Source: Terrilactibacillus sp. S3-3 (GTDB lineage Bacteria; Bacillota; Bacilli; Bacillales; Sporolactobacillaceae). From it: a stretch of DNA of 64,000 nt. Within the stretch, counting starts at the first letter, position 1, and each line of letters starts with the position of its first letter. Under the pieces are notes generated by a model. That model was not told the origin of the DNA. It made no database searches and saw only the letters and a list, made by a program, of their open reading frames with translations. The stretch spans positions 806,001-870,000 of the forward strand of contig CP129291.1 of NCBI GenBank assembly GCA_030437565.1, in the 5' to 3' direction. Below, one piece after another: positions 14,227 through 60,968 of this stretch. The translations under genes and the position numbers were made by a program.

Positions 14227-14624
14227 CAGCCGGTATCCCGACGCACAGGACGAGCTAGTGCCGGCGTTTCGACAGGAAGTCGAGCATTTAGCCGGTAATC
14301 CCGACGCACAGGACGAGCTAGTGCCGGCGTTTCGACAGGAAGTCGAGTAATTAGCCGGTAATCCCGACGCACAGGACGAGCTAGTGCCGGCGTTTCGACA
14401 GGAAGTCGAGCATTTAGCCGGTAATCCCGACGCACAGGACGAGCTAGTGCCGGCGTTTCGACAGGAAGTCGAGCATTTAGCCGGTAATCCCGACGCACAG
14501 GACGAGCTAGTGCCGGCGTTTCGACAGGAAGTCGAGTATTTAGCCGATAATCCCGACGCACAGGACGTGCTAGTACCGGCGTTTCGACAGGAAGTCGAGT
14601 ATTTAGCCGGTAATCCTATATTCA
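14227..14624 (+). repeat. 63-bp tandem repeat, about six copies
   Basis: A 63-bp unit starting GCCGGTAATCCCGACGCACA recurs at about 14290, 14353, 14416, 14479 and 14542, with partial units at the ends, nearly identical throughout. Each unit is itself two related halves of about 31-32 bp, both containing ACAGGA, GAGC and GCCGG. It contains the small palindrome CGACAGGAAGTCG. Because 63 is a multiple of three, open frames exist on both strands (for example PDAQDELVPAFRQEVE), but one unit has a TAA and there is no convincing start, so I treat it as noncoding. It lies upstream of the dehydrogenase gene. Confidence 0.9.
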
Positions 14625-47815: not shown

Positions 47816-48036
47816 TTTATCCCGCCTTAACGGGCAGTAAGACTCCACCTCAAGCCTTCAATGAATTCGAAGAAGCATAGGTGGGAGACACCTGCCCGTA
47901 AAAGCCCGATCTTAGGAACACAGACTAAAGACGCCACATCCAGTGGCAACGTCTGTGTGACCCACATCCTGTGGACCGCAACTAACAATCAGTGGGGGAT
48001 GGGAAGAAAACCCCACTGATTGAAGTTTCACCTTAT
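47816..48036 (+). repeat. Structured dispersed repeat, copy C (long form)
   Basis: The longest copy: TTTATCCCGCC start, the CTCCACCT/AGGTGGGAG stem, conserved AATGAATTCGAAGAAGC loop, an extra nested region (ACAGAC..GTCTGT enclosing CCACATCCAGTGG, then CCACATCCTGTGG) and the terminal CAATCAGTGGGG/CCCCACTGATTG hairpin ending TTTCACCTTAT. Confidence 0.9.
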
Positions 48037-53795: not shown

Positions 53796-53944
53796 CGAAA
53801 GGACAGGCATTTTCCTGGAATGGTTCTTGTCCGGCCATAGATGACGTCATGTTTATTCAAGAGGGCTCTCAGCCCGTCACGTTTTTTGGGGTTGACACAT
53901 AAAAAAAAAAAAACGAAACAGGTCATCCTAAATCTCGGAGGGTG

Positions 53945-54740
53945 ATGCCACTTGAAAAAAAAAAAAACCTCATCGCTGCAATGGTGATCATGTTCGCATT
54001 GATTTTGACGCCTGGTTTTAGCCAGGCCAAAGACTGGTACTTTAAACCATCGAAAAATAATCAACCGGCGACGACAGAGCCGGAATATGAATCGCTTCTA
54101 AAAAAATATGACGGTATTTACATTGGCGATACATCCAAAAAAGATATTTATTTTACTTTTGATAACGGTTATGAAGCGGGGTATACAGCCAGTATTTTGG
54201 ACACTTTAAAGAAGGAACATGTTCCAGCCACTTTTTTTGTGACCGGCCACTATATTGAGGATCAGCCGCAGATGGTCAAGAGGATGGTGAAAGAAGGGCA
54301 TATTATCGGCAATCATTCATGGGGGCATCCTGATTTATCCAAAATCAGTAACGAAAAGTACAAAATAGAATTGGAAAAATTAAAGATGGCCTATACGGAA
54401 TTGACCGGCAAATCTAATATGCTCTATCTTCGTCCGCCGCGCGGCACGTTCAGTGCACGTTCGCTGAAATTAGCCAAGCAGCAAGGATATGTCAGCGTAT
54501 TTTGGTCCGCTGCCTATAAAGACTGGGGTGCGCGATGATCAAAAAGGTGCCGATTACGCATATGATATATATTATAAAACGTGTTCACCCTGGAGCCATT
54601 CTGCTCCTTCATACCGTTTCCAAAGACAACGCAGGGGCAATGCCGCGCGTGATACATAATTAAAAAAAAAACAAGGCTATCATTTCAAAAGTCTGGATGA
54701 CTTAATGGCCCAAAAAATACTGCCTTCATTTGTTTGGTGA
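53945..54740 (+). CDS. pdaA: PdaA-type polysaccharide deacetylase, frameshifted
   Basis: PdaA deacetylates muramic acid so that muramic-delta-lactam can form in the spore cortex. A signal peptide (IAAMVIMFALILTPGFSQA) precedes the NodB domain: IYFTFDNGYEAGYT with the Asp, HIIGNHSWGHPDL with the metal-binding His pair, YLRPPRGTFS, and the C-terminal LLLHTVSKDNA. Breaks occur near 54535, 54580 and 54660. The start is unclear, because an A13 run follows a TTG that would be in frame if the run length were off by one; ATG 53945 is in frame as given. Confidence 0.9.
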
Positions 54741-54758
54741 TGAACGGCCGTAACAAAG

Positions 54759-54793
54759 AAAGCGAGAGGAATATTTAATGCCTCTCGCTTTTT
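54759..54793 (+). terminator. Terminator of pdaA
   Basis: AAAGCGAGAGG pairs perfectly with CCTCTCGCTTT, with a TTTTTC tail. Confidence 0.85.
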
Positions 54794-54897
54794 CACGATG
54801 AGAAAAAAAAACCTTCTTTTGTATGTTCAAAGGCTTTACAGGTCTTTTCTTGTTTGCACGTCAGGATAAAAAAAAAATCTAAAAAAAGTTAGAAACA

Positions 54898-55087
54898 CTA
54901 TCCACAAAGTTATGCACAGGCTTGACATTTAGAAAAGTTAGTTTAACAGTAAATAACGGCTGTTTTTCCACACTATCCACATTATTTAGTATATTTATCT
55001 ACAAAATTACGCACATTTCGACATCACTATAAATAAGGGTTTTTGACAGTTATCCACTTATCCACAGAGTTATTGACATTTTCCACA
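54898..55087 (+). promoter_or_regulatory. Cluster of nine DnaA-box-like 9-mers
   Basis: All on the + strand: CTATCCACA 54898, TTATGCACA 54910, TTTTCCACA 54964, CTATCCACA 54973, TTATCTACA 54995, TTACGCACA 55007, TTATCCACT 55050, TTATCCACA 55058 (perfect) and TTTTCCACA 55079. The others differ from TTATCCACA by one or two bases. Boxes 3-4 abut and 7-8 overlap by one base. TTGACA motifs recur between them (54923, 55043, 55073) and the whole stretch is AT-rich. It occupies the gap between pdaA and an ABC transporter operon, with no dnaA or dnaN nearby. Confidence 0.8.
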
Positions 55088-55157
55088 CATTTGACCTCAT
55101 AAAATCAGAAAATAAAAATTAAACCTGTTCTGGGCATTTGTCACGATCCCGCCCACC

Positions 55158-56016
55158 GTGCATGATGGCATCAAGGTGGTGAAAGACGTGGAAATTCGAA
55201 AAATACTTAAGAACAGTCCACCAGCCGCAGAAATCGGGCCCTGGGAAAAACAAAATAGAAAAGAAGCTGCCAGGCATATGCTGACCATTTTTTTTCTCCG
55301 CTTTGTTTACTTATATTATGGGAATTTTTGTCGAGAGCACAAATCGTTGACGCCCGCTTTTTTTCCGCCGCCCACCAGTATTATCGGTACTTTTATTCAA
55401 ATGATTGCCAGCGGTCATTTGTTCAGCCACTTGGAAATCAGCTTGTACCGGATCATTTTCGGATTTTTGCTAGGGGTTGTTCCGGCGGTTCTACTCGGAC
55501 TTCTCATGGGCATGTACAAACCGATAAAATATTTCTTTCAGCCGCTTGTCATGGCGTTGATGCCGATTCCGACACTAGCCTTGATGCCGATCATCCTGAT
55601 CATTTTTGGCATTGGCGATTTTTCTAAGATGGTGACGATTGCCGGAAGTGTCTTTTTTTCCGTGGGTGGTAATCAATACGGCTGCCGGTGTCGCGAACAT
55701 CGATCCAATATATCTGGATGTAGCCAGGAATTACGGTGCGAAAAGAGCAACCTTTTTCTTTAAAATTGCCCTGCCCGGAGCATTGCCGGTCATGATTGAA
55801 GGTATTCAAATGGGGCAGGCGATTGCACTCTTAACCATTGTCGCTGCGGAAATGATGGGGGCTCAATCGGGGATCGGTTATTTGATCTGGACATCGTACA
55901 AAGCCTTCCTTTTAAAGGACATGTACGTTGGACTTGTTCTGATTTCTTTTTTCGGTTATCTTTTTTCTATTTTATTGCGCTTTCTTGAAAGAAAACTTAT
56001 TCCGTGGAAGAAATGA
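55158..56016 (+). CDS. ABC transporter permease (SsuC/TauC family), frameshifted
   Basis: This is the membrane subunit of a nitrate/sulfonate/taurine-type importer. Joined segments are [21 protein letters not shown]-like, [40 protein letters not shown], then the EAA loop region around [29 protein letters not shown]. Frames change near 55290, 55365 and 55665; the N-terminal start around 55158 is approximate. It overlaps the ATPase gene. It has about 285 residues. Confidence 0.82.
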
Positions 56017-56824
56017 TCGGAAGGAAAGGGGGGAGAAAGGTGGAGTGGCCAGCAAAAATCTCAGTTCGTCACTTGAGTAAAATTTTTTATCGAAAACAGA
56101 CAGCGGCAGCGGCTTTGTACGATGTGAATTTCGATGTGCAGGAAGGCGAGTTTGTCTGTATTCTCGGACCAAGCGGGTGCGGCAAGACGACACTGCTGCG
56201 GATTCTGGCTGGGTTAGAACAAAAAACGAGCGGCGAGATCATCATGGTTCATCATGATCCGGCCCTCCCGCTTCAATCCATGGTTTTCCAAGAAAAAGGC
56301 GTTATTCCTTGGATGACGGTTGAAGAAAATGTCGCATTCGGCTTAAAAATGCGGCGGATGCCAAATAAGCAAATACAAGAGCGGGTCGACTATTATTTGA
56401 AAAAGGTCGGACTGAACCAGTTTCGCCATTCTTATCCATCGGAAATCTCCGGAGGTATGAAGCAAAGAGTAAGCATCGCTAGAGCGTTTGCTAATGACCC
56501 GGAGATTCTGCTGATGGATGAACCCTTTGCGGCACTAGATGAACAGAACAAGTTTATTTTGCAGGAGGAATTGTTCAATATTTGGGCTGAAACGAAAAAG
56601 ACAGTGATTTTCATTACCCATAGCATAGATGAAGCGCTCTTATTGAGCGATAAAATTTTATTATGAGTGCCCAGCCCGGAACGATCATCAGCGAGAAACC
56701 GATTTCCATGGAAAAGCCAAGGAGCATTGAGATGGTCCGTTCGGATGTACAAATGGCGAAAGAGTTTGTTAGCATTTGGAAACATTTACAATCGGCCGTT
56801 CAATCTTCAAGGCATTTTGTTTAA
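56004..56824 (+). CDS. ABC transporter ATP-binding protein (SsuB/TauB family), frameshifted
   Basis: Walker A is [10 protein letters not shown], the Q-loop [14 protein letters not shown], the signature [16 protein letters not shown] (with a Met in place of Gln) and Walker [15 protein letters not shown], followed by [14 protein letters not shown] with the switch His. A break near 56665 leads to the C-terminal [15 protein letters not shown]. It powers the adjacent permease. The start region overlaps the permease end by 13 bases. Confidence 0.87.
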
Positions 56825-56844
56825 TGAAAAGGAGGATCTAAGCA

Positions 56845-57940
56845 ATGTTAAAGAAAGGGTTAATTGTTTTATTTGTCATTCCCATGTTGCTGTTTTCGCT
56901 GTTCGGCTGCCAAAGCAGCGAAAAAAAAGGCGGAAGTGTTGTCAATGAATCGGCAAAAGCAGTCGACGGTAATTTGAAACCATGAAAAAAAAAAACAGAC
57001 GACCGTCGTGATTGCTGAAGATGGATCGGCATCCGGAGCCGGATTTTATATTGCCAATGAACTGGGCTATTTCAAAGATTATAATATCAAAATCAAGTTC
57101 GCCAGTTTTGCCAATAGCGATGATATGCTGCCGGCGCTGTCGGCGGGTAAAGTGGATATTGCCGGCGGGATTTCATCATCCGCTTCCTTCTTTAATTCGA
57201 TTGCACAGGGCATTAATGTGCGGATGATCGCCGATAAGGGGCATAACATCCAAGGAAAATCTTATTTCTCATTTGTGATTCGAAAAGACTTGAAAGACAA
57301 AATAAAGACATACCAAGATCTGAAAGGTAAGAAAGTGGCGATTTCAACAAAGAACGCCGTTGATGATTACATCTTCCAGCAAATGTTGAATCATTCAGGC
57401 TTAAAAAGAAGCGATGTCCATATTGTCCTGATGCCTGATTTTGGAAACATGATGGCTGCACTTGGCAACGGTTCAATCGATGCGGCGCTGCAAATTGAGC
57501 CGTTATTGACGAAAGGGATCGCGAGCGGCATCCAGACAAAACTTGGGGATACAACGGATTTTGCTCCGAAAGCACAAGTTGCGATGGTACTTGGTTCGCC
57601 AGAGTTCCTTGATGATAACCATGATACAGCGCTTCGTTTTATGGTCGCCTATTTAAAAGGGGTTCGCGCATACAATGACGCTTTCTTTAAAGGAAAAGAT
57701 AAAGACAAAATCATTAAAATTATGAAAAAAAAATATACAGCGCTGAAAGATGAAAAAACTTGGGAAGAAGTTGATGTCGCCGGTTTGGATCCGAATGGCA
57801 AAATGTTTGTCGGCGATATAAAAGATCAATATGAATGGTATCACTCAAGGGGCGGGATTTCCGGTAAAGTGGATTTGAACAAAGCGGTAGATACATCACT
57901 TGCCAAACAAGCGGTGAAGATACTGGGAACGTATCACTGA
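56845..57940 (+). CDS. ABC transporter substrate-binding lipoprotein (SsuA/NMT1-type), frameshifted
   Basis: The N-terminus has a lipoprotein signal ending in LFSLFGCQSS, with lipidated Cys. After a break in an A-run near 56988 come VVIAEDGSASGAGFYIANELGYFKDY, LPALSAGKVDIAGG, YQDLKGKKVAIS and DAALQIEPLL, the NMT1/SsuA fold. Length is about 365 residues. The ligand is unknown: sulfonates, taurine, nitrate or pyrimidine precursors are all possible for the family. It is the last gene of the operon. Confidence 0.85.
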
Positions 57941-58641: not shown

Positions 58642-59212
58642 TTATGCCTCTTTCAGCGTGCTTCCTTCAGGCTGAATGATGAGAAAGGACTGAACTTGAT
58701 ATTGATGGGTGAGAAATCTCTCTTTTGTAATGGCATAGAGATCGTAGGTCACCACGTCAGGATTAATTTTGGCATAGACAGTTGGATAGTCTAAATTAGC
58801 AAGCACGACATAAGGTAATTTTTCGGCAGCTTTCTTTGAGCGGATATTGGTCAGCCTGATCTTCATAAAAATGGTATCGATCCCTTGATCAAGAAACAGT
58901 TCATTAAAAAAAGCCTCTTTCGCTTTTTGATTGTAGCCTTGGCCAAAATAAGGCTTTCCGAGCCAGGTACCTAAAAAGCCTGATCCGTTCTCAATATCAA
59001 AAAGTGAGATTGTCCCGATTGGAGCTCCCCATTCATTCGTGATTGTCCTAGAGATCATTTCGCGATTTTCTTCCGCTTCAATGGCTTGTTTGACAACGAA
59101 CATGAATTCTTCAGGTGTGCTTGCCTTTTGCCGGACAAAGGGAAAAACGGCCGGGTCCTGCATCAAATCAAACACCCCACATTCATTCAGAAAGGTCACG
59201 CTTTTTTAACAT
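58642..59212 (-). CDS. GNAT family N-acetyltransferase, frameshifted at its start
   Basis: This is an acetyl-CoA-dependent acetyltransferase of about 190 residues. The best start is the ATG at 59212 with GGGAGG 8 bases upstream, reading MLKKRDLSE; one base too many near 59190 shifts the frame to ECGVFDLMQDPAVFPFVRQKA. Motif A follows: GFLGTWLGKPYFGQGYNQKAKEAFF, and NIRSKKAAEKLPYV is motif B. The substrate is unknown. The ribosome site is part of a hairpin and a short leader ORF precedes it, so expression may be controlled at translation. Confidence 0.82.
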
Positions 59213-59770: not shown

Positions 59771-60590
59771 ATGCATACCATTACCGAAATTCGGGTGGAC
59801 ACCCATCAGAAGGGTTACTATTATGTGGATATTTGCGGTGAAGATTTTCCAGCGACCACACTGCACATCCATGAAGATATTCTGGTGAAACACGGACTTC
59901 GTAAAGGTCTGGAAATGACGGCAGATGAACTGTCGTCGATACAGTCGGAAGAGGATGATAATAAAAGTTATCTTGTCGCAATACATTACCTCTCGTATCG
60001 TATGCGAAGCGTTCAAGAAATGGAAGCGTATTTATTGAAAAAGGGCTTTTCTCATCGGCAAGTTTATCGTACAATCAAGCGGCTGGCGAGTGAAAAGCTT
60101 TTGGATGACGGACAGTTTGCGGATGCTTTTGTTCGGACAAGGGTTCATCTGTCTACAAAAGGGCCGGAACGCATCTATCGGGAATTGCTGCGCGCAGGTG
60201 TGGCTCCTTCTGCAGCGCGCTCTTCTTTAGAAGCGTATTCGTTTGAAGAGCAGCTGGCTAATAGTATCCGCTATTTAAATAAAAAAAAAAAGCAGCCATT
60301 AGAGGAAAGCGCTCGCCGGCCGAAGGTGCCAATATAATCAGGCGAATGCTGACGCAAAGAGGCTTTTCTTCGCAAGTTATTGAACATGTGCTTTCTGATT
60401 ATTTACTTTTTACGGCTGCGGATGAAAAGCAGGCACTGGTCTATCAAGGAGAAAAAGCGGTGCAAAAAAATATAAAAAATATACAGGGCGAACATTCGAG
60501 CAAAAGGTCAAAAGCTGCCTTTACAGGAAGGGGTTTTCACTTCCGGAGATCGACTCTTTTTTGCGAGAGCGGCCTGAGGAAAACAATTAA
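59771..60590 (+). CDS. recX: Regulatory protein RecX, frameshifted
   Basis: RecX binds RecA filaments and limits recombination. The three-helix repeats are visible: AIHYLSYRMRSVQEMEAYLLKKG, RTIKRLASEKLLDDGQFADAFVRTR, then GPERIYRELLRAGV. After breaks in an A-run near 60285 and near 60490, RRMLTQRGFSSQVIEHVLSDY and CLYRKGFSLPEIDSFLRERP follow, ending at TAA 60588. It has about 270 residues. The ATG at 59771 follows AAGGAG. The neighbour YfhH matches the Bacillus order. Confidence 0.9.
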
Positions 60591-60656
60591 GTATGGTGGA
60601 AGCATCGATTGTGAAAGATGAAGGTAAGATAGAGATGAAAAGAGGAATGAATGGGA

Positions 60657-60968
60657 ATGGAAAAACGCTTTAGTGAGATGATGAGTGAATCTGAGCTGGA
60701 CCAAAATATTCGGGAATTTGCAGAAAAAGCCCGAAAAGCCGAGCAAATGGGTATGGTGAACGAATATGCTGTCTATAAACGTAAAATTGATATGGCCAAA
60801 GCCTATCTTATGAATCCCGATGATTTTAAGCCGGGACAAGTCTATGAAGTCGGTGGGAAGGATTTTGTCATCGAACATATGAAAGGCACTTTTGCCTGGG
60901 GCCGCCTGGATCGGTCGGATGAACTTTCGGCTTATCCGATATCGGTACTGGAAAAAAAAAAGGATTAA
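60657..60968 (+). CDS. YfhH family (DUF1811) protein
   Basis: This intact protein of about 103 residues starts MEKRFSEMMSESELDQNIRE, as B. subtilis YfhH does, so the ATG at 60657 is preferred over 60651. A helical N-terminal half (FAEKARKAEQMGMVNEYAVY, KIDMAKAYLMNPDDF) is followed by an SH3-like beta domain (YEVGGKDFVIEHMKGTFAWG). The function is unknown. It sits directly after recX, as in Bacillus. Confidence 0.88.
   Translation: MEKRFSEMMSESELDQNIREFAEKARKAEQMGMVNEYAVYKRKIDMAKAYLMNPDDFKPGQVYEVGGKDFVIEHMKGTFAWGRLDRSDELSAYPISVLEKKKD

Follow-up and report, generated by a model that had tools for sequence, protein, structure and literature searches.

A conserved one-strand array of DnaA boxes beside pdaA in Terrilactibacillus sp. 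S3-3: a new locus of a known kind of off-origin cluster and probably a brake on replication

The locus and its DnaA boxes

The DNA analysed (the window) was a stretch of 64 kb from the genome of Terrilactibacillus sp. S3-3, a member of the family Sporolactobacillaceae, order Bacillales. The genome consists of a single contig of 3.60 Mb, with an estimated completeness of 76% and many broken reading frames, and was the only one of its genus in the comparison set; the closest named relative, on the basis of the ABC ATPase, was Pullulanibacillus pueri (72%). An array of DnaA boxes was located between a terminator-like hairpin 3' of pdaA and an ABC transporter operon of the NMT1/THI5 type, and domain searches confirmed these two neighbours, which the initial annotation had named. 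The GNAT acetyltransferase of the window shares 52–64% identity with the GNAT proteins adjoining the arrays of other families. The coordinates of all these features are detailed in Table 1.

Frameshifts split many genes, such as pdaA (broken near 54538), the permease and recX, often near homopolymer runs, and are probably sequencing errors. The window also contains six tandem copies of the Bacillaceae-1 RNA (RF01690) with a spacing of 63 nt (14242–14622, minus strand), a single copy of the same RNA (47909–47975, plus strand) and a TPP riboswitch (RF00059, 15440–15551).

From 54898 to 55087, ten 9-mers with at most two mismatches to TTATCCACA were found, all of them on the plus strand: one was perfect, seven had a single change and two had two. 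Eight boxes are within one mismatch, and the dense, unidirectional cluster initially annotated was borne out. The single perfect box reported among nine also stood, with corrected totals of ten boxes and nine, rather than eight, changed ones. Three abutting or overlapping pairs were counted instead of two (54964/54973, 55050/55058, with one base in common, and 55070/55079). TTGACA does recur, at 54922, 55044 and 55073. The DnaA-box consensus of Bacillus subtilis used for comparison was TTATNCACA (PMC4447404).

Table 1. Features of the array and of the surrounding segment (positions in the window; offsets from the start of box 1; changes relative to TTATCCACA; identities from the family alignment)
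Feature	Position	Strand	Remarks
pdaA (polysaccharide deacetylase)	53942–54740	+	PF01522, 5.5e-38; 72% to Pullulanibacillus PdaA; syntenic anchor
Terminator-like hairpin	54759–54797	+	14-nt inverted repeat, 93% complementary, then T; parts pdaA from the array
DnaA box 1, CTATCCACA	54898–54906	+	One change; offset 0; 83% pairwise identity, 17 family loci
DnaA box 2, TTATGCACA	54910–54918	+	One change, perfect by TTATNCACA; offset 12; 94% identity
TTGACA after box 2	54922–54927	+	Near-invariant columns
DnaA box 3, TTTTCCACA	54964–54972	+	One change; offset 66; first of central doublet
DnaA box 4, CTATCCACA	54973–54981	+	One change; offset 75; abuts box 3
DnaA box 5, TTATCTACA	54995–55003	+	One change; offset 97
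Weak box 6, TTACGCACA	55007–55015	+	Two changes; offset 109; 67% identity
DnaA box 7, TTATCCACT	55050–55058	+	One change; offset 152; overlaps box 8 by one base; 92% identity
DnaA box 8, TTATCCACA	55058–55066	+	Perfect; offset 160; 93% identity
Weak box 9, TTATTGACA	55070–55078	+	Two changes; invariant TTGACA core; 96% identity
Box-like site, TTTTCCACA	55079–55087	+	One change; position not conserved within the family
3' block TTGACC-TCATAAA-TCAGAAAA	55090–55123	+	Common to most Sporolactobacillus-type loci
ABC operon: permease, ATPase, NMT1/THI5-type binding protein	55158–57940	+	PF00528, PF00005, PF09084; frame broken in places
GNAT acetyltransferase	58642–59199	−	PF13302; marks the segment by synteny in the order
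recX (frame broken) and yfhH (DUF1811)	59771–60950	+	PF21982/PF02631, PF08838; syntenic markers

Conservation of the array and its plan

A sequence-only profile without structure (R1) detected the array in all 26 genomes of the family, the opposite of the lack of conservation in relatives that the initial annotation had named as part of its refuting condition. A search with PdaA in the same genomes yielded 25 pdaA loci, 23 of them with same-strand boxes directly downstream. In G007 and G003 the array lies 2–3 kb beyond pdaA, with a glycosylase gene intervening, and in G008, without a pdaA at the search threshold, it adjoins recX. The spacing is fixed across the family (offsets 0, 12, 65, 74, 96, 108, 151 and 159), and pairwise identity in the family alignment was 86% for box columns vs 47% for spacers. 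In most family loci the plan reads AGTTA-GAACA, box 1, box 2 (+12), TTGACA and the doublet; 22 bp further comes a lone box, then a weak one, the pair overlapping by one base and TTATTGACA. The Pullulanibacillus-type loci are more degenerate.

Within the order, R1 matched 236 of 299 genomes at E ≤ 1e-4. Although location played no part in this search, 71 of the 103 matches outside the family whose neighbourhoods were determined had tsaD and/or ydiF as neighbours and 27 had genes of the pdaA/yfjP/rlmCD/GNAT/recX/yfhH segment. The segment is tied together as one locus by L363, which carries pdaA, rlmCD, the array, GNAT and an amidohydrolase gene within 5 kb. Five matches were at neither site (L226, L237, L355, L345 and L348): L226 has neighbours in common with the segment locus L225, and L345 and L348 are isolated single cases. 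The remaining two, L237 and L355, both of family f25, have an array of the same plan beside a gene for a metallo-beta-lactamase-fold protein, a third place that was not seen in the other families sampled. Within the window's own family, all four second matches (L168, L171, L172 and L173) were at tsaD-ydiF. A wider search of the class placed 23 of 28 loci at tsaD-ydiF and none in the pdaA/GNAT/recX segment, and the segment site thus seems to be limited to the order, on this small sample of 28 loci.

A cluster-blind sample of 50 GNAT loci, a fairer test than loci selected by the profile, included 16 with four or more boxes on one strand within 210 bp, and most of these 16 repeat the distances 12/43–55/9/22. 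The array is therefore patchy, being present at about one third of the sampled GNAT loci, and where present its plan is usually the same; since about two thirds lack it, it is not indispensable in the order.

The same geometry was found at both sites, with boxes recurring near offsets 0, 12, 54, 63, 85, 99 and 141 from box 1. Box 2 and the doublet stand either 41–43 or 53–55 apart, with nothing between these two values, which differ by about one helical turn; the longer distance occurs in most of the window's family and in some other families, and at tsaD some of the values of 54 were measured from box 1. Matches to R1 scored 22–53 bits at the segment site (the weaker L254 and L226, with 21–24 bits, being split matches) and, a few secondary matches aside, 23–51 bits at the tsaD site. 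That R1 merely detects box-rich DNA was rejected: the oriC regions of 20 genomes, although equally rich in boxes, scored at most 20.5 bits, and random reassignment of the spacer lengths lowered the median score from 37–38 to 9–10 bits. The real arrangement outscored all 20 spacer-length shuffles in 53 of 54 loci, which had themselves been selected by R1. No description of a conserved architecture of such clusters was found in the open-licence literature.

On the basis of sequence comparison, the array of the window appears orthologous to the arrays that many Bacillales carry in the pdaA/GNAT/recX segment, and it shares its plan with the tsaD-ydiF cluster. In strain S3-3 itself, tsaD and ydiF are present in order (G000:C1:596000-602500, L367) without the DnaA-box cluster that is usual between the two genes in the order, and several other members of the family also lack boxes there. 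A recent copying of the tsaD-ydiF cluster was likewise rejected: spacer identity between the two sites was 0.53 within a genome vs 0.54 between genomes and 0.59 in the shuffled null, and since it is no higher than either of these, a recent duplication is not indicated; an ancient duplication or convergence would fit equally.

Chromosomal position was compared in eleven complete or near-complete genomes. The array is 0.45–1.14 Mb from dnaA (40–95 degrees) and on the arm downstream of dnaA in ten of them, G234 having it on the other arm. As read from the strands, all eleven have boxes oriented in the direction of fork movement, whereas those of the tsaD arrays face the fork. This may be only a consequence of synteny.

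Proposed function and alternatives

With several near-consensus boxes (relative to TTATNCACA) packed into some 200 bp between genes and remote from dnaA, the array has the sequence features of a B. subtilis-type off-oriC cluster. R1 matched tsaD-ydiF in many families with the same offsets, and tsaD(gcp)-ydiF is one of the six off-oriC clusters of B. subtilis (PMC4447404, Table 1, region 4), with many intergenic boxes. The array is a new locus of an already known kind of element, and the suggestion of a B. subtilis-type non-origin cluster in the initial annotation is well supported by the same spacing rules at tsaD(gcp)-ydiF of relatives. The tsaD-ydiF clusters of relatives agree with the array in box order, strand and spacing, and in many cases the direct boxes are followed by one more in inverted orientation; for B. 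subtilis itself, the exact architecture is assumed from its relatives. The array differs in its locus, the pdaA/GNAT/recX segment, and its host has lost the tsaD-ydiF array.

The B. subtilis clusters at trmE, yydA/rlmH, ywlC, ywcI/vpr and sda/yqeG are elements of the same kind. Strain S3-3 has a small cluster just upstream of trmE (C1:3597037-3597118, L008) and another between the gene for an HtrA-like protease and rlmH (C1:3548074-3548523, L369), matching the trmE and yydA sites of B. subtilis, respectively. Unlike the one-strand array, both are mixed-strand and below the R1 cut-off (E ≤ 1e-4).

By analogy with the B. subtilis clusters, it is fairly probable that the array is an off-origin DnaA-box cluster on which an ordered DnaA complex assembles and restrains initiation; its probable role is that of a brake on replication, not of an origin or a conventional gene switch. 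DnaA would bind strong sites such as boxes 2, 4 and 7/8 and extend from them by cooperative binding to weaker boxes. The resulting complex, ordered and in helical phase, would keep DnaA from oriC and so restrain or time initiation; the array would be duplicated when the fork is past roughly the midpoint of the right arm. DnaA occupancy is expected from measurements at the B. subtilis tsaD-ydiF region, where the apparent Kd was 0.15 µM for ATP-DnaA and 0.33 µM for ADP-DnaA (PMC4447404). A negative effect on initiation would be in line with the deletion of six clusters in B. subtilis, which causes early initiation, partly relieved by restoring one cluster (Okumura 2012, as reviewed in PMC5295017 and PMC13220808). 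One point against this reading is that simple titration gives no evident reason for fixed spacing; from the constant geometry, a defined complex seems likelier than a loose sink.

Such a complex might alternatively bring DnaA domains together instead of merely sequestering the protein, the array then being a switch of its nucleotide state, either datA-like (ATP hydrolysis) or DARS-like (ADP release). This is possible, although unlikely. The array resembles datA, DARS1 and DARS2 of Escherichia coli in kind, these being intergenic DnaA-box elements at a fairly stable distance from oriC that control initiation. The retention of spacing while the spacer sequence drifts, with a gap that changes by about a helical turn, is what a defined complex would show, and at 55 nM the B. 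subtilis tsaD-ydiF cluster yielded 16-fold more DNA with ATP-DnaA than with ADP-DnaA (PMC4447404). The similar place in complete genomes, about 40–95 degrees from dnaA, also fits, but is equally explained by ordinary synteny, and every strong box of the array is on one strand. The E. coli elements use IHF and Fis, and B. subtilis has no IHF, which datA and DARS2 require as cofactor (PMC13220808); no sequence relation to the array is expected. No such activity is known in B. subtilis, and in a 2026 review the existence of regulators of the DnaA ATP/ADP balance in this species is given as unknown (PMC13220808). The broader proposal of a Bacillales-wide cis-element, at one or both of the two loci, on which a DnaA complex of set geometry alters DnaA activity or nucleotide state as a Gram-positive counterpart of datA/DARS, is decidedly speculative and quite unlikely.

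The boxes could also regulate the gene that directly follows them, in strain S3-3 that of the ABC transporter, in the way DnaA acts on sda or ywlC of B. subtilis, a reading that we consider improbable. Several B. subtilis clusters do regulate genes via DnaA (PMC4447404), and TTGACA near the last boxes and the conserved 3' block could be parts of a promoter, but no good, correctly spaced -10 box was found and the promoter-like matches were near chance level. Boxes upstream of one particular gene, as in an sda-type promoter, were not observed either: the array is followed by an ABC permease gene in nine genomes of eight genera and by recX in most Sporolactobacillus-type genomes, and in other families it lies between convergent gene ends, those of the GNAT and RlmCD genes in L227, L229, L231 and L360. 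At tsaD-ydiF the array is downstream of both genes (PMC4447404 and the loci examined). Since the downstream gene differs and many arrays are between convergent gene ends, a promoter of the ABC operon was rejected as the conserved function, and the DnaA-controlled promoter proposed in the initial annotation is unsupported as such.

An ectopic, relocated or secondary replication origin, another of the early proposals, is highly improbable and found no support. The AT-rich DNA and a box density comparable to that of the bipartite oriC of Bacillales agree with it, but the latter has boxes on both strands, adjacent to dnaA/dnaN and accompanied by a DnaA-trio, none of which applies to the array. The same contig begins with dnaA (base 1), 861 kb from the array, and the oriC of strain S3-3 is intact and bipartite, with ten boxes on both strands upstream of dnaA, four between dnaA and dnaN, and a six-fold DnaA-trio in the dnaA-dnaN gap. 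No run of three trio repeats, and no unwinding element of this type beside the boxes, was found at 54600–55400, and the GC skew of the 64-kb window (2-kb bins) was mostly positive, without a lasting change of sign around the array. Because a normal bipartite oriC is present 861 kb away and the array lacks the DnaA-trio of the dnaA-dnaN gap, the array is not an origin.

Chance or the expansion of a simple repeat without function, whose one argument is the AT-rich setting, has a negligible probability and is refuted by the box-by-box conservation across 26 genomes (10 genera) and beyond the family, the observed eight same-strand boxes per 190 bp being matched neither in 200 dinucleotide shuffles of the 64-kb window (best count 3) nor when the AT-rich 270 bp of the locality were shuffled 20,000 times (maximum 3, mean 0.12).

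Significance for DnaA-box clusters in Bacillales

The usual view of the off-origin clusters of B. subtilis is that of a reservoir of binding sites soaking up DnaA. At least one class of cluster has a fixed plan, in order, strand, spacing and phase, in many families and at two syntenic places, and the maintenance of this plan despite drifting spacer sequence argues for a defined DnaA complex. The R1 profile can be used to find such clusters in any Bacillales genome, and the array is a concrete object for separating simple titration from a function that depends on architecture.
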